Shown here: positions 12,061 through 48,453 of the stretch, in pieces
How positions within the stretch are numbered: the first letter of the stretch is position 1
How the letters are laid out: each line of letters opens with the position of its first letter
Translations under genes and position numbers: made by a program
Source: Mycolicibacterium holsaticum DSM 44478 = JCM 12374
GTDB taxonomy: Bacteria > Actinomycetota > Actinomycetes > Mycobacteriales > Mycobacteriaceae
DNA: 64,000 nucleotides
Direction of reading: 5' to 3'
Assembly (NCBI RefSeq): GCF_019645835.1
Contig: NZ_CP080998.1
Span: 4,464,001 to 4,528,000, forward strand
The notes under the pieces: model-generated
What the model was told of the DNA's origin: nothing
The model's input: the letters and a program-made list of their open reading frames with translations, nothing else
The model's database searches: none

Positions 12061-12061
12061 C

Positions 12062-12568: not shown

Positions 12569-12569
12569 C

Positions 12570-13664: not shown

Positions 13665-13804
13665 GCGCCGGTCAACCAGCAACGGCAGGTCGAAGATTCG
13701 CAAAACTGTGCGGGCACGACGCGTTATTATCGCGATTGACGCCTGCGATCGCCCAACTGCCGTGTCTTGCGCGGGCGCGTATCTGTGAGCTGAGGTGGCG
13801 TGCC

Positions 13805-14998: not shown

Positions 14999-15053
14999 GT
15001 CCGACAATGCCGCCTCGGCTTCTCATTGTCAGACGAACGGACTGTGCCGATGT

Positions 15054-16232: not shown

Positions 16233-16330
16233 TCGTGGTCTCCTCGCTCTTTCCAACGGCTCCACACCTCGACGTGCCGGTGGCGGCCGACGAACGTGAT
16301 CCAGTGTCGAACCCCGTAGCGAGCAGGCAA

Positions 16331-16430
16331 ATCTGCCGTTGGTGGCCAATATGTCCGCCGTTCGGCGTAGGGCTGGCCATTAGGCACACCCTTATCTGCC
16401 GTTTGCCAGATTGTTGGCCGTTCGGCGCAG
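16331..16430. promoter_or_regulatory. Two-copy repeat in the divergent promoter region, candidate operator pair
   Basis: ATCTGCCGTT...GCCGTTCGGCG...AG occurs twice, at 16331-16370 and 16394-16430, as imperfect direct repeats 63 bp apart (about six helical turns). Each ends in the near-palindrome (C/G)GCCG-TT-CGGCG. It sits between the divergent thiolase and enoyl-CoA hydratase genes. A regulator binding both copies is the simplest reading; which one is unknown. Confidence 0.5.
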
Positions 16431-16446
16431 TGCCACCGTCATCGTC

Positions 16447-20859: not shown

Positions 20860-20915
20860 CGGTACGACTACGGCAATACAAACCAGACGAATTCGGTATT
20901 CAAGGAGACTGATCC

Positions 20916-22133: not shown

Positions 22134-22191
22134 CCGTCGACGCCGTTCAGCGGCCGGGCCGCTCCAGAATCCCAGCAAGACAAGGAGTTAG

Positions 22192-23115: not shown

Positions 23116-23159
23116 CGCGATCCATACGCTACTTCCACCGATGAGCCACAGGGAGCCTC

Positions 23160-32954: not shown

Positions 32955-32959
32955 GTCGG

Positions 32960-33829: not shown

Positions 33830-34623
33830 CAGTGCCCCGTCCCGAACCGTACGCCGATGCTGGTGAGCACCACGTTAACTGCGAACAACGCAATCACGCA
33901 GAGCACAACCGTTTCGTTGACGGCGGTGCCGAGCCCCTTGGAGCCACCGCGAACTGTCAGGCCCCGGTAACAGCCGACCAGCCCGGCGATCAGCCCGAAC
34001 ACCGCCGCCTTCACAGTAGAAATAACCACCTCTGGCAGTCCGGTAATCAAGGTCAGCGTGGAGACGTAAGCCCCGCCCGACACGTTCTGCAGATACACCC
34101 CGAAAATGAAGCCGCCGACCAGTCCGATGGTGATCACCATGGCGTTGAGAAGCGTGGCGACATACGTTGCCGCGATGACTCGTGGCACTACCAGCCGGTG
34201 GATGGGGTCGATGCCCAACACTTCCATCGCGTCGATCTCTTCGCGAAGTATGCGGGCGCCCAGGTCCGCACAGATCGCAGTCGAGCCGGCTCCGGCGATG
34301 ACCAGCACCGTAGTCAGCGGGCCTAGTTGGGTGACCGCGCCCAGCGCCGCACCCGCACCGGAGATATCGGCAGCGCCGAACTCGGCTAGCAGGATGTTGA
34401 GAAGGAAGATGAGCAGTACCGTCAACGGCACCGCAACCGCGATCGTCGGTCCGATCGCGACGCTCATGATGAACCAACCCTGTTGGACTGTTTCGCGCCA
34501 CTGAAAGGGACTGCGGAAGAGCGCCTTTCCGGCCAGGACGCACATCCGGAAGAACCCACCGACCATCGTCACAGGTGCGTCTACGTGACCGCGGGCACGT
34601 TCCCGAAACGCCGAAATCGTCAA
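33829..34623 (-). CDS. yrbEA: YrbEA, MlaE-type permease
   Basis: 264-aa MlaE-type permease and first gene of the importer operon. It shows the conserved coupling motif CADLGARILREEIDAMEVLGI and several transmembrane helices. The 288 bp upstream are shared with the divergent extradiol dioxygenase and hold the GTTCC-N7-GGAAC palindrome at 34831, 208 bp from this start. The rest of that gap shows only a short inverted repeat, CACCA-AG-TGGTG at 34751-34762. Confidence 0.94.
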   Translation of the reverse strand: MTISAFRERARGHVDAPVTMVGGFFRMCVLAGKALFRSPFQWRETVQQGWFIMSVAIGPTIAVAVPLTVLLIFLLNILLAEFGAADISGAGAALGAVTQLGPLTTVLVIAGAGSTAICADLGARILREEIDAMEVLGIDPIHRLVVPRVIAATYVATLLNAMVITIGLVGGFIFGVYLQNVSGGAYVSTLTLITGLPEVVISTVKAAVFGLIAGLVGCYRGLTVRGGSKGLGTAVNETVVLCVIALFAVNVVLTSIGVRFGTGH

Positions 34624-34830
34624 GAGTGCCGCCCGTGACGCGAAACGTAGCCCGCGGCAAGCACTTCGGAAACCAACGACGTTGCGGGGGCAGGCACACG
34701 CCGAGCTGCCGACCTATTGGACCGGTGATTACTTGTCCGCCGCTGCAGGCCACCAAGTGGTGAACCCGTTTGCCCAAGCTGTGCCACCGCCACAGTATTG
34801 AGCTTGCCGTCAGATCGGGTCATCGGCCGC

Positions 34831-34847
34831 GTTCCGCCTATCGGAAC
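34831..34847. promoter_or_regulatory. GTTCC-N7-GGAAC palindrome, site 1
   Basis: GTTCC-GCCTATC-GGAAC between the divergent mce operon and the extradiol dioxygenase, 64 bp upstream of the dioxygenase ATG. One of six copies between 34.8 and 47.0 kb obeying GTTCC-R-N5-Y-GGAAC. Confidence 0.65.
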
Positions 34848-34911
34848 CGGCTGCGAGGCGGGGGCGCGCTTGCGATTTATGGTGCTAGCCATCAACCACA
34901 ACTGGAGGCGG

Positions 34912-35844
34912 ATGGTGAAAAGCGAAGTCGCTGCCCTGGGGTACGTCGTCATAACGGCAAAGGATCTGACCGCCTGGCGTGAGTTCGCCGAGTCCGTCTT
35001 GGGTTTGCAGGTTGGTAGCCAACCCGCGCCCAACCCAGAACTCGAGACGTTGTACCTGCGTCTGGATGAGCGCAGTTGGCGCATCGCTGTCGAGCATGGC
35101 GTCGACGGTGGGATCGGCGCGCTGGGATTCGAGGTAGCGAGTCGGGACGATTTCGAAAATCTCAAGTCCCGCCTCGCTGCGGCCGGTGTAGTCGTCAAGG
35201 ACGCGCCCGAGGTGGCTGCACATCGACGCGTTCTACAGTTGTTCCAGGCGAAGGACCCCAATGGTGTTCCTTTGGAGTTCTTTTACGGCGCGAGAACAGA
35301 GCAGGCGAACTTTGTCTCGCCACGCAACGTCCAGTTCGTCACTGGCACGCAAGGCCTCGGACATGTGGTGCTTCTGGTTCCTGAGCCCGACGATACTTAC
35401 GACTTCTACATCAACCTGCTTGGCTTCCGGGTCAGCGATGTGATCACTGTCGGTCCGCTGACGACCACCTTCACCTCACCGAACTCCCGGCATCACTCTC
35501 TTGCGTTCAGCGGATCCATGGGAATGCCGGTCGCGCTGCAACACATCATGCTTCAGGTCAGCGACATCGACAGCGTGGGCAGAGCGCTAGACCGAGTGCT
35601 GGATGCCGGCGCCCTCCAGCTCAGCCTCGGCCGGCACTCCAATGACCACATGCTGTCGTTCTACTGTTCGAGCCCGTCGGGGTTGGCTATCGAATACGCG
35701 TGTGGTGGCCGCGAGGTCGATGACACCACCCACACCATCGGCTACTACGACAAAATCAGCTTCTGGGGCCACCGGCTGCCCGATGGCAGTGATCCGATGC
35801 AGCAGATCATCGATTCTATGCCGGCGCAGCCGTCGGTCGGATGA
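34912..35844 (+). CDS. Type I extradiol ring-cleavage dioxygenase (BphC/HsaC-like)
   Basis: 310-aa two-domain vicinal oxygen chelate enzyme that cleaves a catechol next to a hydroxyl. Residues line up with BphC: metal ligands His151 (GLGHVVLL), His211 (LQHIML) and Glu261 (LAIEYACGG), active-site His195 (SRHHSLAF), His246 and Tyr251 (DHMLSFYC). ATG at 34912 is chosen for GGAGG just upstream and because the family starts there. Together with the hydrolase at 45846 it would form a meta-cleavage pair; the catechol substrate (biphenyl-like or steroid-like) cannot be read from the sequence. Confidence 0.92.
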   Translation: MVKSEVAALGYVVITAKDLTAWREFAESVLGLQVGSQPAPNPELETLYLRLDERSWRIAVEHGVDGGIGALGFEVASRDDFENLKSRLAAAGVVVKDAPEVAAHRRVLQLFQAKDPNGVPLEFFYGARTEQANFVSPRNVQFVTGTQGLGHVVLLVPEPDDTYDFYINLLGFRVSDVITVGPLTTTFTSPNSRHHSLAFSGSMGMPVALQHIMLQVSDIDSVGRALDRVLDAGALQLSLGRHSNDHMLSFYCSSPSGLAIEYACGGREVDDTTHTIGYYDKISFWGHRLPDGSDPMQQIIDSMPAQPSVG

Positions 35845-35972
35845 TGCGGCTGAGATCGGCAGCCACGCAGGTCGCCGGGATGCCAAAGAGGCTGTCAGGC
35901 AAGGTTCCGGAGTAGCCACAGGCCACGCGGTGCACAACGCTCGACGCTCAGCCACAGCGGGAAGGTTAGAAG

Positions 35973-36944
35973 ATGCAGTATGCGCTGGTCGGGCAAACCG
36001 GGCTGCGTGTGTCCAGGATCGCCTTGGGAACAGCGCTTTTCGGGCTCGCACCGGCCGAAGACGCCTGTGATACCGTCGTCCGGACCGCGGTGGAGCTGGG
36101 TATCAACCTCTTCGACTGCGCAAATACCTATGGGAATCGGGCGGCCTTCGATCGCGACGGCCTTCCGGCGGCCGCGCAGCGTAGCCATGCAGAGGAGCTG
36201 CTCGGCCGCGCGGTCAAAGGCCTGCGTGATGACGTAGTCATCTGCACCAAGGTTTCTGAACCGGTGGGTGACGGCGTGAACGATGCGGGGCTGAGCAGGT
36301 ACCACATCATGCGCGAGGCCGAGCAGAGCCTGCGTCGACTCGGTACCGACCATATCGATATTTACCACCTACACCATCCGTGTCAGGAAGCCGCTCTCGA
36401 TGAGACATTGCGAGCCATGGACGACCTTGTCCACCAAGGCAAGGTGGGCTACGTCGCGCTCTCGACCTACCCCGGGTGGCAAATGACGAAGGCCGTCATG
36501 ATCGCCGACCGCGACCACCTCGCTCGACCAGTTCTCAACCAGGTGTGGTACAACTTGCTCCAGCGTGAGGTCGAGGCCGACGTGGTTCCTGCGGCACTAG
36601 ATTTAAACCTATCGTTAACGTGCTTCAGCCCGTTGGCGGGTGGGGCGCTGGCTGGTACCGAGGTGATGGACCGTCGTTACAGCGGCCTGAAGCGGTGGGG
36701 TTTGCCGTTCGACTACACCCCTGACCAGCGCAACGCCGCGACGAAACTTCAACTCCTCGCCACTGAATGGGGCTATGCACCAGCTCATCTGGCGATCCGC
36801 TGGCTGTTGTCGCGGCCCGCGGTCGCCAGCGCGATCGTTGGTCCCGAGACAGCCGAAGAGCTGGAGCGCAGCGTCGCGGCTATGGCTGTTGAGCTGGATG
36901 CCGGGCAGTTGACGGTTATGGACGGGATCGGACAGGTCAGCTGA
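35973..36944 (+). CDS. Aldo/keto reductase
   Basis: 323-aa AKR (TIM barrel, NADPH-dependent). N-terminus MQYALVGQTGLRVSRIALGT, catalytic Asp and Tyr in INLFDCANTYGN, and LRRLGTDHIDIYHLHHP with the Lys/His region partly replaced. It could reduce a ring ketone or aldehyde, or act in reverse on a diol. It lies 128 bp after the extradiol dioxygenase on the same strand and converges on the P450 gene with an 8-bp overlap. Confidence 0.85.
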   Translation: MQYALVGQTGLRVSRIALGTALFGLAPAEDACDTVVRTAVELGINLFDCANTYGNRAAFDRDGLPAAAQRSHAEELLGRAVKGLRDDVVICTKVSEPVGDGVNDAGLSRYHIMREAEQSLRRLGTDHIDIYHLHHPCQEAALDETLRAMDDLVHQGKVGYVALSTYPGWQMTKAVMIADRDHLARPVLNQVWYNLLQREVEADVVPAALDLNLSLTCFSPLAGGALAGTEVMDRRYSGLKRWGLPFDYTPDQRNAATKLQLLATEWGYAPAHLAIRWLLSRPAVASAIVGPETAEELERSVAAMAVELDAGQLTVMDGIGQVS

Positions 36945-38130
36945 CCGGTCTGAACGCCGCGCGAAATCGCGAGTAGCCCTGAAGCCCGTTGTTCAGGAGC
37001 CGGTGCGCTCCTGACACTTCGATGTGTTCGACGCGTGGAAGCATCGCGCGCAGTAGTGCAGTCATTTCGATTCTCGACAAGTGCATTCCCACACATGCGT
37101 GGGCCCCGAACCCCCACCCGACGTGGCTGCCGCGACGCTCGAGGCTGAACCGCTCCGGCTCGGGGAACTGGGTGTCATCCATATTGGCCGAGGCGAAAAT
37201 CGTGGCGATGCGGTCGCCGGCGTGAAGGGCGACGCCGTCGATATCGTGGTCCTCGGTGACAGTGCGGACGAAGAATCGCACCGGCGATGCGAGGCGGACC
37301 GACTCCATCACCGCGGCAGGCACCAGTTCCGGTTGACGACGCAGGGCCTGCCACGCTTCGGGCTGACGGCCGAGGCTCCACAGCATCTCGGCGGTGGCCA
37401 ACAACGTGGTGTCCAGGCTGGGAATCGCGAAATCCATGATCAGATTTCTGGCTTCAATAGGACCGATCTCGCCTCGGTCGGCAGCGTCCAGAACCGAGGC
37501 GGCCCAGCCATTGGAACGCATCTGCGACCTTCGTAGGCGTGCGGTATAGACAAACACGCTGAACGACCTGAGCGACGTTTTCCATCCCCGCACATTTCGG
37601 ATGCCCGCATTGCTGTCGAAGATGTCCCTGCCCCATCGCAGCAGCTGGTCGCTTGTCACCGGAATACCGACCAGGTCGGCGACGACGCTGACGGGGAGAC
37701 GAGCTGCGAAGTCCTGCACACCGTCGAATGAGGGCCTGGTGAGAAGATCCTCGACGACCGCGTCCGCTGTCCGGTCGATGATCGGTTCGGCATCGACCAA
37801 CGCCTTGGCAGCAAGTGAATGCATCAAGACCTTGCGACGCCGGGTATGAGCTTCGCCGTCGCTGGCCAACGTGCCTTGCCGCGCAAGCGGATTCAGGATC
37901 GGGTTCAACGAGATGTTGCTCGAGCTGTAGCGCTGGTCATCTTTCAGCGTCGAGCGGACATCGGCAAACCTGCCCATCGCCCACACTCGGTGACGGGGCA
38001 ACCAGACGACCGAACCAGCCTCCCGGATCGCGCGATAGGTTTGTTGTGGATTACGCAGACTCTCACGGCTGCTCAAGTCGATGTCGAGTTGCGGGCGGCG
38101 GTGTTGTCGCCGCGGCCGAGAAATAGGCAA
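36937..38130 (-). CDS. Cytochrome P450
   Basis: 397-aa soluble bacterial P450. The heme-binding loop GWGFGAHACVGMHLSR has ligand Cys346; the K-helix ExxR is present as ESVR; the I-helix reads DFAIPSLDTTLL, keeping the acid-alcohol pair (Asp-Thr) but replacing the usual Ala-Gly by Pro-Ser, which may widen or kink the oxygen groove. Last gene of a minus-strand run beginning with the Rieske oxygenase alpha subunit. Its redox partner is not identified; the ferredoxin at 43614 is Rieske type. The stop lies in a 12-bp palindrome shared with the AKR stop. Confidence 0.93.
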   Translation of the reverse strand: MPISRPRRQHRRPQLDIDLSSRESLRNPQQTYRAIREAGSVVWLPRHRVWAMGRFADVRSTLKDDQRYSSSNISLNPILNPLARQGTLASDGEAHTRRRKVLMHSLAAKALVDAEPIIDRTADAVVEDLLTRPSFDGVQDFAARLPVSVVADLVGIPVTSDQLLRWGRDIFDSNAGIRNVRGWKTSLRSFSVFVYTARLRRSQMRSNGWAASVLDAADRGEIGPIEARNLIMDFAIPSLDTTLLATAEMLWSLGRQPEAWQALRRQPELVPAAVMESVRLASPVRFFVRTVTEDHDIDGVALHAGDRIATIFASANMDDTQFPEPERFSLERRGSHVGWGFGAHACVGMHLSRIEMTALLRAMLPRVEHIEVSGAHRLLNNGLQGYSRFRAAFRPVS

Positions 38131-38144
38131 CGTGCTCTCCAGGC

Positions 38145-38855
38145 CTAGCTCGCCGGCCAGCTGACGGCAGTCGCATACAACGACACCTCATCAGGCATCC
38201 AGCGGTCGTACTGATGACGAAATTGCTGGTGGCGGTAGAACTCCGCGGTCAAGGCACCGCGCTGCGGTGCCACCATCGGCGGAGGGTTGCCACGGAAACC
38301 CGCAGTGCTCAGCCGTATCGCCCAATGACGGTCGTAGATCACCTGGTCAGACCATAATTCCAGCAGCAGCAGATGGCCGGGGAGCTCGACATTTTCCAAC
38401 CAGTCGTATGCCACACATCCCGGCTCCCTTCTGGTCTCCGCGACATCGGCGAGCAGTCCACCGCGCAACGCTTCCGACGCCTCAAATGCCGTTTCGATGA
38501 TAATCCGCACCGGTCCGCGTGCCGGCCAGAAGATCTTGCGAGCTCCTTCGTCTAAATCAGCTGGCGCCCAGACAGAGTCAGCCAGCTGGAATCCCTGCTG
38601 GTGGTAGAACTCACTGGGCTGGCCCGTGGAAACCAATGAGAACAGGTTGGGATATGACCCTCCGACGACACCGGCCCACCACCGCCAGTATGCCGGCTCA
38701 TCCTCCCACACGGTAGCGAGCGCGAAGCTCGCTGCGCTGCCGATGGATCGGTAGAGTTCTGCACTCCGGCAACCGACTTCACCACGCATGCGAGTCGTTT
38801 CCTCGAGTAACTGCGTATGGTCGCCAGCCTGATATTCATGGAGCACCCTGAGCAT
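38145..38855 (-). CDS. Tandem antibiotic-biosynthesis-monooxygenase (ABM) fold protein
   Basis: 236 aa with what look like two ferredoxin-like ABM-type halves: MLRVLHEYQAGDHTQLLEET to about residue 110, and a second half with VRIIIETAFEASEALRGGLL and EPGCVAYDWLENVELPGHLLLLELWSDQVIYDRH, the latter being the classic ABM pattern. Some ABM proteins are cofactor-free monooxygenases or isomerases, others small chaperones. ATG at 38855 with GAGG upstream; it starts 8 bp after the VOC gene. The function in the Rieske operon is unknown. Confidence 0.65.
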   Translation of the reverse strand: MLRVLHEYQAGDHTQLLEETTRMRGEVGCRSAELYRSIGSAASFALATVWEDEPAYWRWWAGVVGGSYPNLFSLVSTGQPSEFYHQQGFQLADSVWAPADLDEGARKIFWPARGPVRIIIETAFEASEALRGGLLADVAETRREPGCVAYDWLENVELPGHLLLLELWSDQVIYDRHWAIRLSTAGFRGNPPPMVAPQRGALTAEFYRHQQFRHQYDRWMPDEVSLYATAVSWPAS

Positions 38856-38862
38856 GTCAGCC

Positions 38863-39960
38863 TCACACTCCAACGGTCTCGGCGAAGTTGACGACGTAGT
38901 CGAACGGCGGTGGAGCGCCGGCGGCGAGTTCGGGGCGCACCAGCACCGTTTCGACGAGGAAGCCGTGTAGTTGCTCAAAGGTGTCGTGGTAGGCGAACAC
39001 TCCTGCCCCGTGGCCCATTTCCGACCCCATACAAACCTCTGCGCCGGCCTTTTCGAAGGATTGCCCGACGGTCGCCCAATCCTGCTCCGAGTCGGTCATA
39101 TAGGTCAGGATGTGATGAATTCCGGGACCCCGGTGAGCCATGAATTCTTGGCCGTAGTGGCTTGGCCCCGATGTCGGCTGAATCACTTCGAAGCCGAAAT
39201 CTTCACCGATGCCGGTGCCGGTGAAGTATGCGTGGTTCACGGCCTCGCCACGGTAGTGCGGTGCGTCTAACCTGCCGGGTTCGGTCTCCCAACTCTGCAT
39301 CGCCCACTGGTCGATTCCGAAGATGCGGCTGTAGTTCGGAAGTACGGCGACAACATCCGGAACCACCACACCGAAATGTGAGACGCCTTGGACCGGAACA
39401 GTCGGCCCACCAGCGGACGACGCTGCGGCCGGGCGAAGGTGCTGACCGTCAATCTCGAGGTCCTCGGTCAACACCTCGAGAAAGAACCCGCCGAGGTGTC
39501 GCTGGGTGTCCCAGAACCGGCGCTTCGTTCGCCCATCTACCGTGAATGCGAAGGAGTCAGCGATTCGGAGGTCGGCGAAGTGCTGGTCAATCGCGTCGGT
39601 TGCGCTGTCCTCGGGCCGATCCGCTTGCACGGTCAGAAAGCAGATTCCCTCCCCGGCTCGGGTCCGAAGAAACTCATTGAAGACAGATTCACCTGAGACA
39701 GGCTGCACCAGTTCGAAAGTGACGGGACGATACGGCGCCCCGAGGGGTGTGCAGCCCTCGCCCGGTGGCCGGGTGTCACCCACGGCGGACCGGAACGTAC
39801 CAGCAGAGCGACGGCCATGAGCGACCATATTCGACAGCCGGTCGTCGGTGTAGTCATTGACGACCCACGAGTCGATGCCGAAGACCTTGGCGTAGCTGTC
39901 GAGGGCGGCGTCGAGATCTCGGACAACAACCCCGACCTTCACAAGTTTAGTGGGCTTCAT
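38863..39960 (-). CDS. Two-domain VOC (glyoxalase-fold) protein
   Basis: 365 aa with two vicinal-oxygen-chelate halves, starting KLVKVGVVVRDLDAALDSYA and VSHFGVVVPDVVAVLPNYSRI (about residue 195). The motif GPGIHHILTYM in the second half holds a typical metal-binding His; the first domain has EGICFLTVQ in the equivalent place, so it may not bind metal. The set of domains resembles extradiol dioxygenases and methylmalonyl-CoA-epimerase-like proteins, but the BphC Tyr/His pattern is not complete. Encoded between the Rieske beta subunit and the ABM protein. Confidence 0.75.
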   Translation of the reverse strand: MKPTKLVKVGVVVRDLDAALDSYAKVFGIDSWVVNDYTDDRLSNMVAHGRRSAGTFRSAVGDTRPPGEGCTPLGAPYRPVTFELVQPVSGESVFNEFLRTRAGEGICFLTVQADRPEDSATDAIDQHFADLRIADSFAFTVDGRTKRRFWDTQRHLGGFFLEVLTEDLEIDGQHLRPAAASSAGGPTVPVQGVSHFGVVVPDVVAVLPNYSRIFGIDQWAMQSWETEPGRLDAPHYRGEAVNHAYFTGTGIGEDFGFEVIQPTSGPSHYGQEFMAHRGPGIHHILTYMTDSEQDWATVGQSFEKAGAEVCMGSEMGHGAGVFAYHDTFEQLHGFLVETVLVRPELAAGAPPPFDYVVNFAETVGV

Positions 39961-39988
39961 CGTGTTTCACTTTCAGTGCGGTGATTGC

Positions 39989-40534
39989 TCAGTAGAAACT
40001 ACTGAGGTTCTTGACCAGGATCGTCGACATGTCGAATCGGATTTCGCGATGCTTGAGCCGAAATCCGGCAGGGCAATCGTCAGCCTTGACAAGGACGTCA
40101 CGGCGCTCTCCGGTGATGACGTCCTGGTCACGTTCACCGCGGCTCCGGTAGACGAGAAAGTTGGACTTCACCCGGTAGCTTCCGGGGTTTGCTTCGGCCG
40201 CGACACGAACGTTAGTGATCAGATGCCGCGTGCGCGACGCCGGCTCCTCGGCCCAAGCCATGTGCGTTTCCAGGCGACGAACCCGCTGCTCGAGGAATTC
40301 ATGGGTTTCCTCGAAGTACGCCGAAGTCCCGAACTCTTGCCACTCGAACTCCCTGTCGCGGAACGTTCGATTCGTTCGCACGGGGGCCCAGTACATGATG
40401 GATTCGTCGAGGATCCCCAGCCATTCGCCGAATCTCAAGTCATCGAGCAGTTCGGCTTCATAGTAGAGAAAGTCGCGGATCGCGTCCTTGGTGGCGTAGT
40501 CGACGGTCGTCATGGTCGCGTGCGTCGAGGTCAT
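39989..40534 (-). CDS. Aromatic-ring-hydroxylating dioxygenase, beta subunit
   Basis: 181-aa small subunit of a Rieske non-heme iron oxygenase (cystatin/NTF2-like fold). Typical segments: IRDFLYYEAELLDDLRFGEW, MYWAPVRTNRTFRDRE, TRHLITNVRV and YRVKSNFLVYRSRGERD. ATG overlaps the alpha subunit stop (ATGA), ensuring equal synthesis. It probably stabilises an alpha3beta3 hexamer. Confidence 0.93.
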   Translation of the reverse strand: MTSTHATMTTVDYATKDAIRDFLYYEAELLDDLRFGEWLGILDESIMYWAPVRTNRTFRDREFEWQEFGTSAYFEETHEFLEQRVRRLETHMAWAEEPASRTRHLITNVRVAAEANPGSYRVKSNFLVYRSRGERDQDVITGERRDVLVKADDCPAGFRLKHREIRFDMSTILVKNLSSFY

Positions 40535-41895
40535 GCGGTGCCCTGATTTCGCACCTCGTCGGCGGGCCTGCCTTGAACGCAGCTTGTCTTGTCCGGCGAT
40601 ACCGCTCGCTTGGCTTTGATGTCGTCCCAGTTCATCCCCGACATGAGGTCGGCGTAGAAGTCGTACATGTTCAGCGCGGCGTTGTCAGAGAACGGATGTG
40701 CGGTTGTGGCACCGGGATATCCATCTTGATCGACAGCCGGGGCGACGTTGCGCATCGGGTAGCTGAATCGTTGGGCACGCGCCTTCGACCCCCGAAGGAT
40801 GTGCTGCATCTCATGCCAGTTCTCGGCATCGTCCTGTTCGAACATTCCTCCCGGCGAGAACGTGCGCATCACGTCGATGCGCATTGCTTCCTTGACTTCG
40901 CTCGGCGCAGCCTTGGGTACGAACGTCCAGGCCCAAATCTCCATCTCCCCCGGTCCCCGGGGATGGGTGACCCGCATGGTGCCGTTCCCCAGATACATGA
41001 AGTTCGGGAAGATGTTCGAGTGGCCGGCGGGCCGGATGGACCGGAAGCTGCCGCGACGTTCGACGATCGCGTCCTTGTTCGCCTTCTCCCAGGCGATGAG
41101 TTCTGGAGTCTCGAAGCCTGGTGTGGACTCGTCGGTGTCCAGCCACGCGCCGCCATGTCCAAACGGCGTGAAGTACTGACGCCCCTTCAGTTCCAGGACA
41201 CCTTCCGGGCCGGTTGGCACCACGACTTCACCGTTGGCCATCGCATAGACCGCGGACACGTGGGTGATTTCGGCGTGTTGCATGTCGCTGGTTGGCTGTT
41301 CCACATTGAACTTCCAGTTCGCCGACAGAACCCATTTGTGAACCGCGACAGCTTCCACGCCGCCTTCCCAGCGGTCGACATAGCCATCGAGGTACCAGGC
41401 CGCATCACCCAAATATTCGACCAGGTCGGGGGCGTCTTTGTCCCAGCAGCCAAACCAGAACCCCTTGTAGTTGCGCAACCGGGGCACCATCACTGCGCCG
41501 AAACGTGACCGGTCGAATCCCGGGCCGTATGCCGAGTCTTCGTGTGGCACATTGATCAGCTGACCATCGGTGCCATAGGTCCATCCGTGAAATGAGCACA
41601 TGAACGCCTTAGCGGTCCCTGCATCTGCGCGGCATATCCGCATTCCGCGGTGCCGGCACTGATTCAGGAACGCCTTGACAGAGCCGTCCTTCTGGCGGAC
41701 CACCAAGATCGGGTCCTCGCCGATGTAGTTCTGAAGATAGGAGCCGGGTTTGGGAAGCATGCAGTCGTGGGCGAGAAACACCCAAACACGGGGCCAGACC
41801 TGTTCCAACTCCCGCTGATAGATCTGTTCATCGGCGAAAATACCCGCAGCCACCGTCCCGGCCGCGGGATCGATAAGCTTGGCCATATCAATCAT
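40531..41895 (-). CDS. Aromatic-ring-hydroxylating dioxygenase, alpha subunit
   Basis: 454-aa catalytic subunit. The Rieske centre ligands are Cys80-His82 (NQCRHRGM) and Cys100-His103 (CSFHGWTYG). The mononuclear iron site is in NWKFNVEQPTSDMQHAEITH, with the two His and a later Asp expected. It would insert both oxygens of O2 into an aromatic ring, or perform mono-oxygenation. Start MIDMAK with GGGAG upstream; the GTTCC-N7-GGAAC palindrome is 111 bp upstream. It heads the operon alpha-beta-VOC-ABM-P450. No flavin reductase gene is adjacent. Confidence 0.94.
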   Translation of the reverse strand: MIDMAKLIDPAAGTVAAGIFADEQIYQRELEQVWPRVWVFLAHDCMLPKPGSYLQNYIGEDPILVVRQKDGSVKAFLNQCRHRGMRICRADAGTAKAFMCSFHGWTYGTDGQLINVPHEDSAYGPGFDRSRFGAVMVPRLRNYKGFWFGCWDKDAPDLVEYLGDAAWYLDGYVDRWEGGVEAVAVHKWVLSANWKFNVEQPTSDMQHAEITHVSAVYAMANGEVVVPTGPEGVLELKGRQYFTPFGHGGAWLDTDESTPGFETPELIAWEKANKDAIVERRGSFRSIRPAGHSNIFPNFMYLGNGTMRVTHPRGPGEMEIWAWTFVPKAAPSEVKEAMRIDVMRTFSPGGMFEQDDAENWHEMQHILRGSKARAQRFSYPMRNVAPAVDQDGYPGATTAHPFSDNAALNMYDFYADLMSGMNWDDIKAKRAVSPDKTSCVQGRPADEVRNQGTA

Positions 41896-42006
41896 TTTGT
41901 TCTCCCGCGGCCCCGATCAACCGTTCGGCAACGTGCAACGATTCGCCTGTCCACCACGTCATGCCGCTGAAGTTTAGGTACCCGCATGTGACGGCGGGAG
42001 CCATGT

Positions 42007-42023
42007 GTTCCGCCGGGTGGAAC
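42007..42023. promoter_or_regulatory. GTTCC-N7-GGAAC palindrome, site 2
   Basis: GTTCC-GCCGGGT-GGAAC in the 201-bp gap upstream of the Rieske alpha subunit, 111 bp before its ATG. It shares arms and exact spacing with the five other sites. The rest of this gap holds nothing else recognisable. Confidence 0.65.
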
Positions 42024-42096
42024 TGGGCTCGACCTTTCTGGTGGAAACTTTCCGTCACCTATATGCCGTTGCGAACCAGCGCATTTCGTCGCAGAC

Positions 42097-43245
42097 TTAC
42101 CAGCTCCTCTTGAGCCGCCGGACGATCTGATTGAACGGCATCAGCGATGCTAATCCCTTGCGCAAGCTGGGTTGCATGATGCTCAGATTGAACAGCACCA
42201 TGTATTGGACTCCACAATCGCGCCACTGCTCTGCTTGCTCGACGACCTCGTCGGGTGTTCCGGCGAGGTAGATTTCCCGCATCAGCGACATTGGGATGTC
42301 AGCCACGAGGGACAACGCCGTTTGCTCGTCGATCTCATGGGGCAGCAGATCCTGCGAACCCGAGAAGCCAGCACCCAAGGGATGCTGGGTACCGTGGCGA
42401 ACAAAGATCTCGTCAGAGGCATTCAGCCCGCTTGCCTTCATAACTTCGGACGTCAGCGCTTCATCCACGTCGTCCCGGCTGCGACCGGTGATGACGAACA
42501 GACCCACGGCCGGGATGATGGACATCGGGTCGCGACCGGCGTCGGAGGCCGCCGTCCGGACGGCTTCCAAGCGTTGCGCGTAATCTTCTGGACGGTGTGG
42601 GAACGCTGGGAAATACGCGTCTCCGTAGCGTCCTGCCGCGCGCAGCATGCGCGGTCCGTGGGCTCCGATCCAGATCTCGGGCCACTTCCCGCGATAGGGC
42701 GGGAGATCAAACAGTGCGTTGCGCAGCGGGAAGTAGGGCGAGTCCCGGTTGACGAGTTCGCCACCCGAATCCCACAGTGCGCGAACGGTGGCCATCGCCT
42801 CCTCGAACCGTGCGACCGGCGTGGACCAGTCGACACCGTAGGGTTCGCTACCTTCTCGCTCACCCGGGCCGATCCCAAGAATCGCCCGTCCACCGGTCAG
42901 TAGGTGAAGTGTCGCGGCAGCCTGTGCGGTGATGGCCGGGTTGCGTCGACCGGTGTCGGTCACACCCACGCCCAGACGCATCCGACCGAGTCGGTTACGG
43001 GCGGCGATGTGGCCGAGCATGGTCCACGGCTCCATACTTGCGTCAATCGATGGTATTAGCCTCGTTGCCCCGCAATACTTCTGCTTCCACAACGACCGTG
43101 GGAATACCGCGTTCAAGTGGTCAGGAACCCAAAACGAGTCGACGCCGTTAGCGAGTGCAGCCAGATAATTCGCCCGCGTAGCCCCACCAGCCGTTCGGCG
43201 AGCCGCAACAATTGGGTCCATCACGCCCACCCGAAATCTGGCCAT
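42097..43245 (-). CDS. LLM-class flavin (F420)-dependent oxidoreductase
   Basis: 382-aa luciferase-like TIM-barrel enzyme: FRVGVMDPIV, SFWVPDHLNAVFP, LGVGVTDTGRRNPAITAQAA and LGIGPGEREGSEPYG. The last motif is typical of mycobacterial F420-dependent members such as the phthiodiolone ketoreductase-like group. It could oxidise an alcohol or reduce a ketone of the pathway substrate. It lies upstream of and on the same strand as the Rieske oxygenase operon, 201 bp away. Confidence 0.88.
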   Translation of the reverse strand: MARFRVGVMDPIVAARRTAGGATRANYLAALANGVDSFWVPDHLNAVFPRSLWKQKYCGATRLIPSIDASMEPWTMLGHIAARNRLGRMRLGVGVTDTGRRNPAITAQAAATLHLLTGGRAILGIGPGEREGSEPYGVDWSTPVARFEEAMATVRALWDSGGELVNRDSPYFPLRNALFDLPPYRGKWPEIWIGAHGPRMLRAAGRYGDAYFPAFPHRPEDYAQRLEAVRTAASDAGRDPMSIIPAVGLFVITGRSRDDVDEALTSEVMKASGLNASDEIFVRHGTQHPLGAGFSGSQDLLPHEIDEQTALSLVADIPMSLMREIYLAGTPDEVVEQAEQWRDCGVQYMVLFNLSIMQPSLRKGLASLMPFNQIVRRLKRSW

Positions 43246-43466
43246 CGTCTGCCCTTTCCGTGATGGTGTCTGACTGCGAATGCATGTGTGAATGCCAGAA
43301 GCTGTCTGTCGCCGGCAGGACCGACCGTCCAGCGCGATGGCTGCTGGCGGGCCGCGTCGCTTCGATACTCGAGCGGCTCGAGCGTGTTCGTGTTCCAGCG
43401 CATCGCCCGTCTAACAGGGCATGCGGGGAGAGCGTAAGGACTCCCATTCGGGGGCGGAAGCATCGC

Positions 43467-43483
43467 GTTCCACCGAACGGAAC
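43467..43483. promoter_or_regulatory. GTTCC-N7-GGAAC palindrome, site 3
   Basis: GTTCC-ACCGAAC-GGAAC between the LLM gene and the ferredoxin gene, matching the R-N5-Y spacer rule. Confidence 0.65.
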
Positions 43484-43559
43484 TGCGCGCCCGTGTGGCT
43501 GGTGAAGGCCGGGCGCAGATGTCGCACACTCGCGCCTAAGCTTGCAGTCCCTTGGTGGG

Positions 43560-43576
43560 GTTCCGCTCGCCGGAAC
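43560..43576. promoter_or_regulatory. GTTCC-N7-GGAAC palindrome, site 4
   Basis: GTTCC-GCTCGCC-GGAAC, 37 bp before the ferredoxin ATG, a position where a bound protein would overlap or abut the promoter. Confidence 0.65.
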
Positions 43577-43613
43577 ATCGTGATTTCATCCGATCGAACA
43601 ATGCGATTTCCTC

Positions 43614-43928
43614 ATGGCAATGACTTGGATTCGGGTATGCGCCGCGGAAGACATCGCCCCGGGGGAAGCGTTGAGCGTCGACGTGAACGCTCCTATCGCG
43701 GTGTTCAACATCGATGGCGAATTTCTCGCGACCGGCGAGATGTGCACTCACGCCGAAGCCTCTCTGGCCGAGGACGGTTACATCGAAGGCGCCGAGGTCG
43801 AATGCTCGTGGCACATGGCGCGGTTCTGTCTACGCACCGGTAAAGCGCTCAACCCGCCCGCCACGGAGCCGCTGGCTACGTACGCGACGAAGGTCGAGAA
43901 CGGGCAAGTCTTCATCGACATCCCGTGA
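43614..43928 (+). CDS. Rieske [2Fe-2S] ferredoxin for ring-hydroxylating oxygenase
   Basis: 104-aa Rieske ferredoxin. Cluster ligands Cys44-His46 (MCTHAEASL) and Cys64-His67 (CSWHMARF) have the spacing of BphA3/NdoC-type ferredoxins. It is the expected electron donor of the oxygenase encoded at 40531-41895. The flavin reductase that would feed it is not in the window. No good ribosome binding site is seen before the ATG; an in-frame ATG two codons later is an alternative start. Confidence 0.92.
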   Translation: MAMTWIRVCAAEDIAPGEALSVDVNAPIAVFNIDGEFLATGEMCTHAEASLAEDGYIEGAEVECSWHMARFCLRTGKALNPPATEPLATYATKVENGQVFIDIP

Positions 43929-44027
43929 GGCCACCTCGCCGGCAAGCCGCCGCACACCTGCTATCGCGGCGCTGAGCTGCGCCGACGCGTGGCCCGGCGA
44001 ATGTTTGCGTAGTTGCTGATCGGGCCA

Positions 44028-44056
44028 TTGACATCCTCGCGGGTCGGCTATACCTT
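44028..44056 (+). promoter_or_regulatory. Candidate promoter of the IclR gene
   Basis: TTGACA (44028-44033) is followed after 15-17 bp by TATACCTT (44049-44056). Just downstream, GAACC-N13-GGTTC (44062-44084) is a looser inverted repeat that could be the autoregulatory site. Confidence 0.45.
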
Positions 44057-44102
44057 CAATTGAACCGCCGTTTACATCGGGTTCGAGTCGATAACGAGGA
44101 TC

Positions 44103-44873
44103 ATGATGGATTGTCTTTCGACAGCGCAGAGCAGCTCGTCCAGTCGAGCACTTGCGTTGCTGGACGCGTTCGCGGGTCCCCGCTCCGTGCTAGGCGTGAG
44201 CGAACTGGCAGCGGGTGCCGATCTGCCCAAGTCGACCGCACACCGGCTACTGTCAATTCTGGTCAAGCAGAATTACGTCAAGCGGATCGGCGATCGATAC
44301 GCCCTGTCCGAACACGCCTTTGAGATTGGCAACCTGGTGGCAGCGTGTCGGCCCGGTGGGCTCCGGGAGACCGCGGTTCCGTTCATGGTCGAGCTCGCGC
44401 AACAGACGCACGAGACCGTCCACCTCGCCGTGTTGCACAACGGCTCGGTGCTCTATCTCGAGAAGTTGTTTCAGCATTACGCCACGCCGTGCCCGACTGC
44501 CGTCGGATCACGCCGGCCGGCTCACTGCACCGCCCTGGGCAAAGCACTGTTGGCGCACTCGCCGGATGAGGCTATGGATCAGGTGATTTCGGGGACACTG
44601 CAACGGTTTACCCACCGGACTATCGTCAACCCGGATCTGTTGGGACGCGATCTGGCACGGGCACGCAACGATGGCGTCGCTGTCGAGATCGAAGAGTTTC
44701 GGCCGGGACTGGTCTGTGTGGCAGTTCCAATCATGCACCGTCGCGACAACACCCCGATCGGCGCCTTGTCCATCACATCGTCGGTGCCTCGCTTGAAATT
44801 GCGCCGCTTTGCTTCCCTGTTGAATGAGGCGTCCGCAGCTCTCGGGTCGCGGCTGACGTCGGCGAGCCTTTAG
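44103..44873 (+). CDS. IclR-family transcriptional regulator
   Basis: 256 aa. N-terminal winged helix-turn-helix (SRALALLDAF, ELAAGADLPKSTAHRLLSIL) and C-terminal ligand domain (HETVHLAVLHNGSVLYLEKL, HCTALGKALLAHSP, VAVPIMHRRDNTPIGALSI). IclR proteins commonly control aromatic catabolism and bind inverted repeats with GTTCC/GGAAC-like arms. It sits within the set of six GTTCC-N7-GGAAC sites and is the first candidate to bind them. Start ATG 44103 after GAGG; ATG 44106 is an alternative. Confidence 0.9.
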   Translation: MMDCLSTAQSSSSSRALALLDAFAGPRSVLGVSELAAGADLPKSTAHRLLSILVKQNYVKRIGDRYALSEHAFEIGNLVAACRPGGLRETAVPFMVELAQQTHETVHLAVLHNGSVLYLEKLFQHYATPCPTAVGSRRPAHCTALGKALLAHSPDEAMDQVISGTLQRFTHRTIVNPDLLGRDLARARNDGVAVEIEEFRPGLVCVAVPIMHRRDNTPIGALSITSSVPRLKLRRFASLLNEASAALGSRLTSASL

Positions 44874-44947
44874 CTGAGCAGTTCGGTCCTCGGCCGGTCG
44901 ACTCACCTGCACGCTGCTGGGATAGCTCTTACGGGCGGCGGGTGAGG

Positions 44948-45568
44948 TCAGGTGTCAATGATGGCTTGCAGCGCCGCTCCATGCAGCGTCACGAGGCGGC
45001 TTAGCTCGCGGTCACTGAGCGTCCTGACATCCGGTTCCAGGATTGTTCCCAATCCAAAAAGGAAGACTCCCATCGCCTGTGACGCAATCAGCCTTGCCTT
45101 GAGGTTCCGATCTGGACCGGCCAGGACACGGGCAAGCGGCTCGACGAGTCGCTTTGTGAATTGGGCCTCGAACAGCTCTTTACCGTCTTCGAAGTCAAGG
45201 GAACGAATTAGCGCGATTGCCGGGTAGTTGATGTCGCGATCTACCCAGTACGCGACAAAGGTGCGGGCCAACCGGATGCCGAGGGACTCGATTGGTCCGT
45301 CGAGGTCAGCGGCTTCGATTTCGAGACCCGTTTGGGCGGTGATAATTTCGCGGAAGATAGCTTCTTTGGACCCGAAATAGCGAATCACCAAAGGCGCGGT
45401 GACTCCGACGTCGTCGGCGATGTCCTTGAGTCGCACGGCGCTATAGCCGGCTCGTGCGAATCGCCGTCCAGCGGCGATCAGAAGATCCCTGCGGGTCTGG
45501 TCCGAGGTTTTCTTCGCGCGGGAAGCATTGTCCTCGTTGCCTTGTTCGCTGCCACGTGTCACGCGCAT
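44948..45568 (-). CDS. TetR-family transcriptional regulator
   Basis: 206 aa. The helix-turn-helix reads LLIAAGRRFARAGYSAVRLK, DIADDVGVTAPLVIRYFGSK; the C-terminal domain is of the TetR_C type with GVFLFGLGTILEPD. Convergent with the IclR gene. A perfect 14-bp palindrome (45666-45679) lies 98 bp upstream and is a better candidate for its own operator than the GTTCC sites. Ligand unknown. Confidence 0.88.
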   Translation of the reverse strand: MRVTRGSEQGNEDNASRAKKTSDQTRRDLLIAAGRRFARAGYSAVRLKDIADDVGVTAPLVIRYFGSKEAIFREIITAQTGLEIEAADLDGPIESLGIRLARTFVAYWVDRDINYPAIALIRSLDFEDGKELFEAQFTKRLVEPLARVLAGPDRNLKARLIASQAMGVFLFGLGTILEPDVRTLSDRELSRLVTLHGAALQAIIDT

Positions 45569-45665
45569 CGCCTCAAAGTGCTGAGCGGAGCGCCGTGGGA
45601 CACGGGCCGTCGTCGACCCGGTGGTCCTGGCTGAGAGCCAAGTTCTGGTTATGGGTGGACCAGGT

Positions 45666-45679
45666 TGATATCGATATCA
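45666..45679. promoter_or_regulatory. 14-bp perfect palindrome, candidate TetR operator
   Basis: TGATATCGATATCA, 98 bp upstream of the TetR start; AT-rich against a GC-rich background. Only copy seen in the window. Confidence 0.4.
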
Positions 45680-45792
45680 TTGACGTCGCGTCCGTGGCGA
45701 ATTCCTCTAACAGGATCAAGATAGTAACTGCGTGCTTGCTTCTCCAAATCCAACCCAGGAAATCTCATCGGAGCTCCTCAAGCAACGCTGAC

Positions 45793-45809
45793 GTTCCAGA
45801 AGCCGGAAC
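45793..45809. promoter_or_regulatory. GTTCC-N7-GGAAC palindrome, site 5
   Basis: GTTCC-AGAAGCC-GGAAC in the 277-bp gap between the TetR start and the hydrolase stop, 225 bp from the TetR start. It fits the same rule but is farther from any gene start than the other sites. Confidence 0.5.
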
Positions 45810-45845
45810 CGATCGCACAGTCCAGCGACTGCGGCACGAGGGCGT

Positions 45846-46841
45846 TCAGGCGGTGACGGTGTCGGGTAGCGAAACCAGACCGGGTAACGCGGGACGGCGG
45901 GTGGAGATGCCGGCTGCCTGCGCGGTTTCCCAGGTGACTTTTCCATCGCGGAAGAACTCCAAGAAGACCCTGTTGAACAGCTCCGGCTGATCGGTCTGGC
46001 CCTGATGGCCGGTTTCCTCAGGGTAGAAGAACTGCACATTTGGCAATGCGTCTTCCTGGGCATATCCGGCGACGGTGTGCGGGAAGAGCACGTCCTTGGT
46101 GCCGTATAGATAGATTCCGGGAATCGTCATCTTGTCGAAGCGTCCCTTGGTGCTGAGCCGAAGAGCGCTGTCCAAAGCGACCTGGCCCATCGCCGCGTGC
46201 ATCCGTTTCTCCAAGTAGTGCGGGGAGTGCATATTGGCGATTGTGGTGCGCATCGAAACGAGGTCGTCGGTGATTTTCGACGGATCCAAGATGATGGCTT
46301 CCATCAAAGCTCTCATGGAGCCGGCGCTGCCGTCGAATGCTGCGAGGTTGGGCCGTTCTGAAGCAGACCTGCTATCTCGGCCGATCAACTCGGCGGTGGG
46401 AACGATGTCTCCGATGCTTCCGGCGATCAGCGCGTAGCTCAGGATCCGTTCGGGATGGGCAGTCACGTAATTAACGGAGTTCGTGCACCCCATCGAATTG
46501 CCGCTGATATGGAACTTATCCAGACACATCGTCGTGACAAAGTCATGCAGAAAATCGACATGCCCCGCCTCGTCGGGTGGATAGGCATCCTCGTACTGCC
46601 CGGTAAGCCCGTAGCCCGGGAAATCGGGGCAGTAGACGCGAAAGCCGTTGGCCCCCAGAAATGGGGCCATATACCGCCAACCGGCAATGCCTGAGGACCC
46701 GGGAATACCGCCATGCAACAGCAGCACGGAGGGACCCGTCTCGCCAGCGGTGACGTAATGCGCCTTGCAACCACTGGCCAGTCGCACGTACCGGCTCAAC
46801 AATCCCGGGACTTCCATGATCCCATCCTGGGTCAGTGCCAT
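45846..46841 (-). CDS. Alpha/beta hydrolase, meta-cleavage product hydrolase-like
   Basis: 331-aa alpha/beta hydrolase with nucleophile Ser116 in GNSMGC, oxyanion-hole segment LLLHGGIPGSSG near residues 40-50, and C-terminal catalytic His in EETGHQGQTDQPE. The GNSMG-type elbow and the family look match carbon-carbon hydrolases acting on ring-cleavage products (BphD/HsaD group). It would follow the extradiol dioxygenase at 34912. ATG 46841 is chosen because AAGGA lies upstream. A GTTCC-N7-GGAAC site is 102 bp before the start. Confidence 0.85.
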   Translation of the reverse strand: MALTQDGIMEVPGLLSRYVRLASGCKAHYVTAGETGPSVLLLHGGIPGSSGIAGWRYMAPFLGANGFRVYCPDFPGYGLTGQYEDAYPPDEAGHVDFLHDFVTTMCLDKFHISGNSMGCTNSVNYVTAHPERILSYALIAGSIGDIVPTAELIGRDSRSASERPNLAAFDGSAGSMRALMEAIILDPSKITDDLVSMRTTIANMHSPHYLEKRMHAAMGQVALDSALRLSTKGRFDKMTIPGIYLYGTKDVLFPHTVAGYAQEDALPNVQFFYPEETGHQGQTDQPELFNRVFLEFFRDGKVTWETAQAAGISTRRPALPGLVSLPDTVTA

Positions 46842-46943
46842 ATTCGACGTCCTTCGAATCTGCTTGCACGACAAAATAGAAGCAAAACAGCTGAATCAAC
46901 CAAGTGAAGTATGGCCAGGACCGTCCGCATCTACGCATGACGC

Positions 46944-46960
46944 GTTCCAGATGATGGAAC
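46944..46960. promoter_or_regulatory. GTTCC-N7-GGAAC palindrome, site 6 (extended)
   Basis: GTTCC-AGATGAT-GGAAC inside a longer perfect inverted repeat (46941-46963, arms CGCGTTCCA/TGGAACGCG). It is 102 bp upstream of the hydrolase start and only 12 bp from the island-edge repeat. Confidence 0.65.
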
Positions 46961-46972
46961 GCGCACTGCCAC

Positions 46973-47015
46973 TTCGGCGCGCTCACAGCCCGCCAGCGTC
47001 CGTTAGCGCGCCGAA
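46973..47015. repeat. 43-bp direct repeat, copy 2, island edge at the ROK gene
   Basis: Second copy of the repeat at 3544-3586 (42 of 43 identical; T instead of C at 47005, giving stop TAA instead of TGA on the minus strand). It covers the last codons of the ROK gene plus 30 bp beyond, and can fold as a hairpin with 11-bp stem. Confidence 0.85.
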
Positions 47016-47908
47016 ATCACCAATGCGGCCGCGCCGACGAGCCCGGCCTCGCCACCCAACTCCGCCGGGACCACCCGCAGGCCGTGCAGGAACTCCAACC
47101 CGGCATAGGAGGCGAGCGCCTCGCGCACCGGGTCGAAGAGCAATGCACCGGACTTCGCCACCCCACCACCGATGACGACAAGGTCCAGATCGCACACGGC
47201 GCCCACCGACGCGATCATGGCGGCGACGGCCGTCGCGCCGCGGCGAAACGCCTGCAGCGCAATCGCGTCACCCGCTTCGGCAGCGTCGGCGAGCTCCTTG
47301 GCATCGGCGTCGACGGGCGCCTGCCAGCCCTGCGAACGTGCCCACTGCGCCATCCGCGGGCCCGCCGCGATCGTCTCGACGCAGCCGTGTCCGCCACAAC
47401 TGCACGGCGCGCCGCCGGGGTCGACGACGACGTGGCCGACGTGCCCGGCGTTGCCGGTGCGTCCGCCGTAGGGCGCGCCGTCGAGCACCAACCCACCGCC
47501 GACACCGGTGGACACCACCATGCCGAGCATGAACGGCGCGCCCCGGCCCGCGCCGCGCCACCGCTCCCCCAACGCCATGCACAACCCGTCATTGTGCAGC
47601 CGCACCGGGGCGTCGACCACCGCCGCCACCCGGTCGGCAATGGGAAAGCGTTGCCACTCAACGATGTTGATCGGGCTGACGGTGCCAGCCGACAGGTCGA
47701 TCGGCCCGCCGCATCCGATACCGGCCCCGCGCACCCGGCCGCCTGCCGCCGTGAGCGCGTCGTCGATCAGCGCGTCGACGGCCGCCCAGACCGTCTCCGC
47801 GTCTCCTTCGGGCGTCGGCAGCCTGCCCTGGTGCACCAGGGTGCCGTCGTCGTCGACGAGGCCCACGGCGATCTTCGTGCCGCCGATGTCGATCGCCAGC
47901 GTTGTCAT
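47003..47908 (-). CDS. ROK-family sugar kinase (glucokinase-like)
   Basis: 301-aa ROK kinase phosphorylating glucose or a related sugar. ATP-phosphate motif DIGGTK at residues 7-12, sugar-binding segment with GNAGHVGHVVV, and the zinc motif CSCGGHGCVE all intact. The counterpart in M. tuberculosis (Rv0650) directly precedes rplJ. Here its 3' end coincides with the island repeat. Start shares a base with the stop of the gene upstream. Confidence 0.92.
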   Translation of the reverse strand: MTTLAIDIGGTKIAVGLVDDDGTLVHQGRLPTPEGDAETVWAAVDALIDDALTAAGGRVRGAGIGCGGPIDLSAGTVSPINIVEWQRFPIADRVAAVVDAPVRLHNDGLCMALGERWRGAGRGAPFMLGMVVSTGVGGGLVLDGAPYGGRTGNAGHVGHVVVDPGGAPCSCGGHGCVETIAAGPRMAQWARSQGWQAPVDADAKELADAAEAGDAIALQAFRRGATAVAAMIASVGAVCDLDLVVIGGGVAKSGALLFDPVREALASYAGLEFLHGLRVVPAELGGEAGLVGAAALVISAR

Positions 47909-48453
47909 CAGTGCCGGTGGGTGTTGTCGGGCTGACGCGGGTCACCGGGGTGCTCGTATCCCGGGGCGAGTTCGACGACGGCCGCGCAGCGTGCGTCCAG
48001 CCACCGCCGGAACGCCCGACGCCGGGCCGCCCCACGCAGGTGGTCGGCGACCGCGTCGGCATCCTTGAACCGCAGGGGGTTTCGTTCGCGGTACGACGCG
48101 ACGTCCTCGGCCGTCACGTCGACGTCTGCGGTGACGCTTGCGAACACGGCGCGAGCCAACGGGTCGGCGAGCACCGACGCCGCGACGCTGCCGATCTCCA
48201 GACGCGTCACCGTGTCGGGCAGCAGGTCCACTTCGGTCGGCGCCCCGTCCGCGCTGAGCCCCGCCACTCGGGCTTCGGCCGCGACGACGCGTTCGGTCAC
48301 CAGCAGCTGGGTCAACCAGCGGCGCAGTTGTCGCCCCTCGCTGGTGCCTGGCCGCGGCAGCGACGCCGCGAGCAGGGCCGCCCGAAGCTGAGCCTCCCGC
48401 GCGTCGATCTCCTCGACCTCGACAGGTACCCCGTCGACCGTCGCCACGTTCAC
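47908..48453 (-). CDS. Conserved mycobacterial protein (FabD2-annotated position)
   Basis: 181 aa, helical, Arg/Ala-rich, no membrane segment. By position between the GH38 mannosidase and the ROK kinase it corresponds to the gene called fabD2 in M. tuberculosis, although no malonyl-CoA transacylase Gly-x-Ser-x-Gly motif is visible. The function is therefore left open. GTG at 48453 overlaps the mannosidase stop (GTGA); a second GTG at 48447 is possible. Confidence 0.65.
   Translation of the reverse strand: MNVATVDGVPVEVEEIDAREAQLRAALLAASLPRPGTSEGRQLRRWLTQLLVTERVVAAEARVAGLSADGAPTEVDLLPDTVTRLEIGSVAASVLADPLARAVFASVTADVDVTAEDVASYRERNPLRFKDADAVADHLRGAARRRAFRRWLDARCAAVVELAPGYEHPGDPRQPDNTHRH

Follow-up and report, generated by a model that had tools for sequence, protein, structure and literature searches.

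Aromatic catabolism is a main target of regulators of the IclR family, and the operators of one subgroup within group 1, termed GTT-11-AAC, follow the consensus GTTYCRYW3RYGRAAC (Suvorova and Gelfand 2021, PMC8222616). Here, we analyzed six copies of a GTTCC-R-N5-Y-GGAAC palindrome that lie within 12 kb in a ring-degradation block of Mycolicibacterium holsaticum DSM 44478 = JCM 12374. The window, that is, the whole stretch of DNA analyzed, comprises 64,000 nucleotides (positions 4,464,001 to 4,528,000 of contig NZ_CP080998.1), and sites and genes are referred to below by their positions in it (Table 1). The six palindromes are very probably the binding sites of the neighbouring IclR-type regulator, encoded at 44103. 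To the full reading, in which they are predicted operators from which this protein activates transcription upstream of the inferred -35 element, we assign a probability of roughly three in four.

All six sites share with the published consensus the length of 17 bp, the GTTYC/GRAAC arms, and a purine as first and a pyrimidine as last base of the 7-bp spacer (the R..Y rule). The motif, which the initial annotation had taken for an apparently undescribed one, is thus of a published operator type. The inner spacers differ in being GC-rich instead of YW3R, with the inner Y present in four of the six sites, the inner R in three, and a central triplet made only of A and T in none. Moreover, many aromatic-metabolism COGs are reported as under-represented in the GTT-11-AAC subgroup, and the available text of the survey locates the sites by their distance from gene starts and does not use promoter elements as reference (PMC8222616). 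No published regulon of this cluster was found in the open-licence PMC literature, and, as far as that literature shows, both the regulated set and the fixed distance between operator and -10-like hexamer described below are new.

GenR of Corynebacterium glutamicum, tabulated in the same survey with the operator ATTCC-N7(5)-GGAAT, is likewise an IclR regulator of aromatic-degradation genes; it shares the TTCC/GGAA arms and the 7-bp spacing, but has A/T instead of G/C as the outer pair, and other targets. PcaR of C. glutamicum has other arms, GTTCGC-N3-GCGAAC (PMC8222616). The IclR-family protein PheR, which controls phenanthrene genes in Sphingobium sp. SHPJ-2, is also linked to aromatic uptake and ring oxygenation, but is described as a repressor with the minimal motif GCAACG, and comes from another bacterial group (PMC13273656). 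The IclR protein of the window contains both family domains above the Pfam cut-offs (HTH_IclR, 53.6 bits with a cut-off of 22; IclR_C, 131.8 bits with a cut-off of 24). Its best NCBIfam match is TIGR02431 (PcaR/PcaU/PobR), with a score of 143.9 bits that is well under the subfamily cut-off of 284.75. Its relatives in the PDB include 5hpf, a p-hydroxybenzoate hydroxylase transcriptional activator that we take to be PobR.

Number and placement of the sites

The coordinates, identical 5-bp arms, 7-bp spacers and R..Y spacer ends reported for the six sites in the initial annotation are all correct. With unrestricted spacer ends, GTTCC-N7-GGAAC has seven exact matches in the window, compared with a mean of 0.06 in shuffled sequences. 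The seventh match (943-959), which had been overlooked, lies within an open reading frame (ORF), and its spacer ends, G...A, break the R..Y rule. The whole genome (5,623,714 bases) contains 13 exact matches, compared with four for a reversed control pattern; the six outside the window are spread over 0.33 to 2.96 Mb. Seven of the 13 keep the R..Y rule, namely the six within 12 kb and one at 647814. When up to two mismatches are allowed, the window is not enriched (40 sites, 33.5 expected), and the signal is therefore confined to exact sites. The three one-mismatch copies in the window (31278, 35241 and 37152) are all in ORFs; all six sites are intergenic.

That the six sites form a chance cluster, or belong to a repeat element without a regulatory role, is scarcely credible. 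The unrestricted palindrome is found seven more times in the genome, but the count in the window was reached by none of 100 shuffles, and sites are associated with iclR genes elsewhere, as described below. When the 25-bp flanks of the six sites are compared in register, a mean of 6.6 bases are identical (14 for the best pair), so that the sites do not derive from a larger repeated element.

Most of the initial assignments of sites to gene starts stand. The exception is site 45793, which precedes tetR (start 45568, minus strand) and lies beyond the hydrolase stop at 45846; the upstream site of the hydrolase gene itself is 46944. The distances from operator centre to start codon are 73 bp for the extradiol gene, 120 bp for Rieske alpha, 111 bp for the hydrolase, 230 bp for the luciferase-like (LLM) oxidoreductase, 46 and 139 bp for the ferredoxin, 216 bp for mce and 233 bp for tetR, with start codons of our own choice (the extradiol start by its preceding GGAGG, the hydrolase start as the ATG at 46841). 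The iclR gene begins 174 bp after the ferredoxin gene on the same strand, and the pair of sites at the ferredoxin gene may also govern it. Site 45793 would place tetR under IclR control.

IclR and TetR as candidate binding proteins

A dimer of an IclR-family protein is taken to bind each GTTCC-R-N5-Y-GGAAC site. The initial annotation had ranked the IclR protein (44103) first and the TetR protein (44948) second as candidate regulators, an order that homologue loci, the recognition helix and divergent clusters support well. Among 101 fetched loci (L047-L067 and L098-L177), 100 have a tblastn match to the IclR protein at 35-45% identity; they are part of all the homologue places listed, and several genomes contribute more than one locus. 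At 33 of these 100 loci, an R..Y site with at most one mismatch lies no farther than about 250 bp from the gene, and the density is 33 sites in 54 kb near the iclR homologues versus 17 in 399 kb at a distance of 0.5-2.5 kb. With any spacer ends, 35 sites with a 7-bp spacer are found near the homologues, compared with 0 to 3 for spacers of 3-6 and 8-11 bp, and among permuted arms GTTCC ranks first with the same 35 sites, followed by GTCTC with 16. The sites also track the recognition helix: a near site accompanies 32 of the 46 homologues with a PKx[TS]xHR helix and two of the 54 with other helices, counts that are uncorrected for relatedness and that use slightly different edges for the near region (34 loci here, 33 in the density count). 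The PKGTLHR helix is common to 18 of these 32 homologues, and the PKSTAHR helix of the window protein is also present in homologues from Rhodococcus YL-1 and from a genome of the same genus (G332).

Close relatives of the cluster are rare among 297 genomes of the genus (its own included), with Rieske alpha matched in two (E 1e-120), the hydrolase in four (1e-70) and the extradiol gene in one (1e-80). In G332, an IclR protein of 48% identity occurs with a Rieske alpha subunit of 48-49%; an exact site and a one-mismatch site, 49 bp apart, precede the Rieske alpha gene, and the exact one starts 107 bp before it. A plasmid cluster of Rhodococcus YL-1 encodes IclR (45-46%), aldo/keto reductase, ferredoxin, TetR, FAD oxidoreductase, Rieske alpha and beta, and VOC proteins; the FAD oxidoreductase gene is preceded by an exact site and Rieske alpha by a one-mismatch site. 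In genomes G473 and G307, the hydrolase gene stands beside iclR (44%), and in both its upstream region contains a site of the consensus type.

Binding of the six palindromes by TetR is very unlikely. The tetR gene adjoins the sites, 45793 lies upstream of it, and the YL-1 cluster, which also has sites, encodes a TetR homologue of 32.5% identity. IclR is nevertheless favoured over TetR, because sites gather at IclR homologues and track their recognition helix, and because divergent clusters pair IclR and sites without this TetR. A search of 12 related loci, which range from 4 to 41 kb in length, found a TetR homologue in the YL-1 locus only, and no TetR match (E 1e-6) is present in the loci from G332, G196, G259, G049, G436, G473 and G307. 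Likewise, in 28 of the 43 other TetR matches (33-38% identity, with 1.5 kb on either side), no R..Y site with at most one mismatch was found; four of the 28 loci have one-mismatch sites, none of them with R..Y ends. The motif is, moreover, an IclR-family consensus (PMC8222616). A perfect 14-bp palindrome, TGATATCGATATCA, is located at 45666-45679 upstream of tetR. It is single in the window but for a two-mismatch copy at 49877, and could be the operator of TetR itself, a further point against TetR as the binder of the six sites.

The sites might also be bound by another IclR-family protein that is encoded elsewhere, although this appears quite improbable. The motif type is common to the family, and a paralogue of 39% identity, encoded at 3971590 in this genome, could bind in trans, which tells against the neighbouring regulator. 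However, the locus of this paralogue (L159) has no R..Y site with at most one mismatch within 2.5 kb, and the linkage of IclR, Rieske genes and sites recurs across divergent genomes.

Operator position and mode of regulation

In three of the 12 directions in the window, those towards the extradiol, Rieske alpha and LLM genes, the distance between the operator centre and a TANNNT hexamer is exactly 39 bp. Three hexamers at one common offset, whichever it may be, occurred in four of 4000 random intergenic sextets and in none of 4000 sextets drawn from 25-48 kb. Inclusion of CANNNT, brought in after looking at the data, adds the hydrolase promoter (CATACT), so that [TC]ANNNT stands at 39 bp for four of the six window operators. 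These -10-like hexamers are predictions from sequence; a sigma-70 consensus scan of 34600-47100 returned no promoter, with a shuffle mean of 2.8.

The spacing recurs in relatives. The sample consisted of nine loci, with 22 sites and 44 directions, that were picked because IclR and Rieske genes lie near each other in these genomes, and that leave out L181, L182 and L184. Five of the ten TANNNT hexamers are at 38-40 bp (0.19 expected), four of these five being already known before the count, after the window had shown 39. For CANNNT, nine hexamers are at 38-40 bp, compared with 1.3 expected. The Rieske promoter of G332 has CAGTGT at 39 bp. The control hexamers TT...A, AT...T and TA...A show no excess at 38-40 bp in the relative loci, and in a comparison with control arms just two arms had enough sites.

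With a spacing of 39 bp, the operator comes before the inferred -35 element, as expected for an activator, and this geometry suggests activation by IclR. If transcription starts about 7 nucleotides after the [TC]ANNNT hexamer, the operators of the extradiol, Rieske alpha, LLM and hydrolase promoters would cover about -59 to -43. They would then adjoin the inferred -35 element on its upstream side, where an activator would contact RNA polymerase. The likely inducer would be an aromatic substrate or an early intermediate, judging from the gene content and the aromatic-sensing IclR relatives.

PobR/PcaU-type regulators can switch on catabolic genes and repress themselves. In directions that face iclR homologues, TANNNT is located at 15-19 bp in nine of 18 cases, overlapping the inferred promoter core, and about half of these operators look autorepressive in layout. 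Other actinobacterial iclR genes, those near L101, L116, L120, L122, L130 and L139, have GTTCCRCTSAGY-type sites with a TANNNT on the iclR side at a distance of 17-18 bp, which likewise looks like an arrangement for autorepression.

An IclR protein that represses from the six sites and is released by its ligand is an unlikely alternative to activation, for which there are nonetheless three points: the precedent of PheR, the 15-19-bp layout towards iclR homologues, and the closeness of operator 43560 to the ferredoxin start. Steric repression would favour overlap with the promoter, but the hexamer is 39 bp off at four window operators, and this distance is repeated in relatives.

Besides the late admission of CANNNT, several observations weigh against activation by the neighbouring IclR protein. 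Concerning the sites, the published W3 core is matched by none of the six, and iclR itself (44103) has no near-consensus site directly upstream. Operators 43560, the nearest to the ferredoxin, and 45793 have no -10-like hexamer at 38-40 bp. Nor does this spacing occur in any of the 18 directions that point to iclR homologues, and the hexamer at 39/40 bp in G473 and G307 faces away from the hydrolase. Concerning the homologues, 67 of the 100 IclR loci have no near site, among them that of YL-1, whose iclR is the sole one of the 100 with the PKSTAHR helix, and the homologues share descent, so that the counts overstate independence. Finally, G436 encodes an IclR (37%) together with a closer relative of the hydrolase (58-61%) but lacks a site in front of the hydrolase gene, and the 4.3-kb Rieske locus of G223 (L184) has no site.

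The ring-degradation block and the mce importer

Table 1. Features of the operator-bearing region, in window positions
Feature	Position	Strand	Remark
mce operon, MlaE permeases and Mce/MlaD proteins	25019-34623	-	possible target
Operator 1, GTTCCGCCTATCGGAAC	34831-34847		between extradiol gene (+) and mce operon (-)
-10-like TATGGT, extradiol gene	34878-34883	+	39 bp from operator 1 centre
Extradiol ring-cleavage dioxygenase	34912-35844	+	best NCBIfam match BphC TIGR03213, 278.9 bits, cut-off 366.45
Aldo/keto reductase	35973-36944		after extradiol gene
Rieske oxygenase alpha and beta, VOC protein, ABM-domain protein, P450	36937-41895	-	probable operon
-10-like TAAACT, Rieske alpha	41976-41971	-	offset 39 from operator 2
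Operator 2, GTTCCGCCGGGTGGAAC	42007-42023		upstream of Rieske alpha
Luciferase-like (LLM) flavin/F420-type oxidoreductase	42097-43245	-	
-10-like TACGCT, towards LLM gene	43436-43431	-	offset 39 from operator 3
Operator 3, GTTCCACCGAACGGAAC	43467-43483		-10-like hexamer at offset 39 towards LLM gene
Operator 4, GTTCCGCTCGCCGGAAC	43560-43576		centre 46 bp upstream of ferredoxin start
Rieske-type ferredoxin, HcaC-like	43614-43928	+	
IclR-family regulator	44103-44873	+	PKSTAHR as recognition helix; proposed to bind all six sites
TetR-family regulator	44948-45568	-	proposed downstream target rather than binder
Operator 5, GTTCCAGAAGCCGGAAC	45793-45809		upstream of tetR, past hydrolase stop; conserved in L014
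Alpha/beta hydrolase	45846-46841	-	HsaD/BphD-like, below cut-offs
-10-like CATACT, hydrolase	46913-46908	-	offset 39 from operator 6
Operator 6, GTTCCAGATGATGGAAC	46944-46960		upstream of hydrolase; arms extend to CGCGTTCCA/TGGAACGCG

The nearest models of the Rieske alpha, beta and ferredoxin proteins are those of 3-phenylpropionate dioxygenase. The ferredoxin and the beta subunit each exceed the cut-off of one model; the alpha subunit is below, with 444.3 bits and a cut-off of 830. In ten matches to Rieske alpha homologues (L189-L197 and L200), one in-frame TGA lies inside the match. The extradiol enzyme is nearest to BphC and the hydrolase to HsaD/BphD, both under the cut-offs, and the rest of the block encodes the P450, ABM-domain, VOC, aldo/keto reductase and LLM proteins. 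Upstream of the mce operon, window positions 5018-24989 contain phenylacetate-type (PaaA_PaaC) monooxygenase genes and genes for thiolases, acyl-CoA dehydrogenases and an AMP-ligase. This segment has no site at up to one mismatch; its genes may act on the side chain or on downstream intermediates.

A contig scan for relatives of the window revealed two remote matches and a single contig, L014, that is nearly identical. Positions 1-3661 of L014, a contig of a metagenome-assembled genome labelled Rhodococcus, are 96.8% identical to window 44373-48025, ROK gene included, and retain sites 45793 and 46944. The contig is possibly mycobacterial and mis-binned.

The initial annotation had proposed that a lipid-type importer is co-regulated with ring oxygenation and cleavage by one ligand. 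Site 34831 does separate the extradiol gene from the mce operon, which may thus be a target. In the mce direction, the -10-like hexamer (TACTGT) is at an offset of 42 instead of 39, with a leader of about 162 nucleotides, and the 39-bp geometry indicates that the site points to the extradiol gene. Queries with six Mce and two MlaE proteins found no mce homologues in the 12 related loci. The MlaE gene at the head of this mce copy shares 82-85% identity with loci of genus mates, with a match (E 1e-90) in all 118 genomes sampled, and the 19 best of these loci have no site. Because mce genes are absent from all the related clusters examined, co-regulation of mce, while possible, is the least supported of the claims.

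We tentatively consider, as a doubtful extension, that a portable IclR activation module, with the operator 39 ± 1 bp from [TC]ANNNT, drives ring-degradation operons of mycobacteria and rhodococci, and that it has here also captured a copy of the mce importer and the tetR gene, which would tie the import of hydrophobic aromatics to their degradation. Naming a likely regulator, its operator and its promoters for a mycobacterial ring-degradation cluster makes the screening of inducers straightforward. The system would also probe the joint control of an Mce importer and aromatic oxidation. If confirmed, the fixed spacing between operator and -10 hexamer would allow activated and repressed IclR promoters to be told apart by sequence alone.

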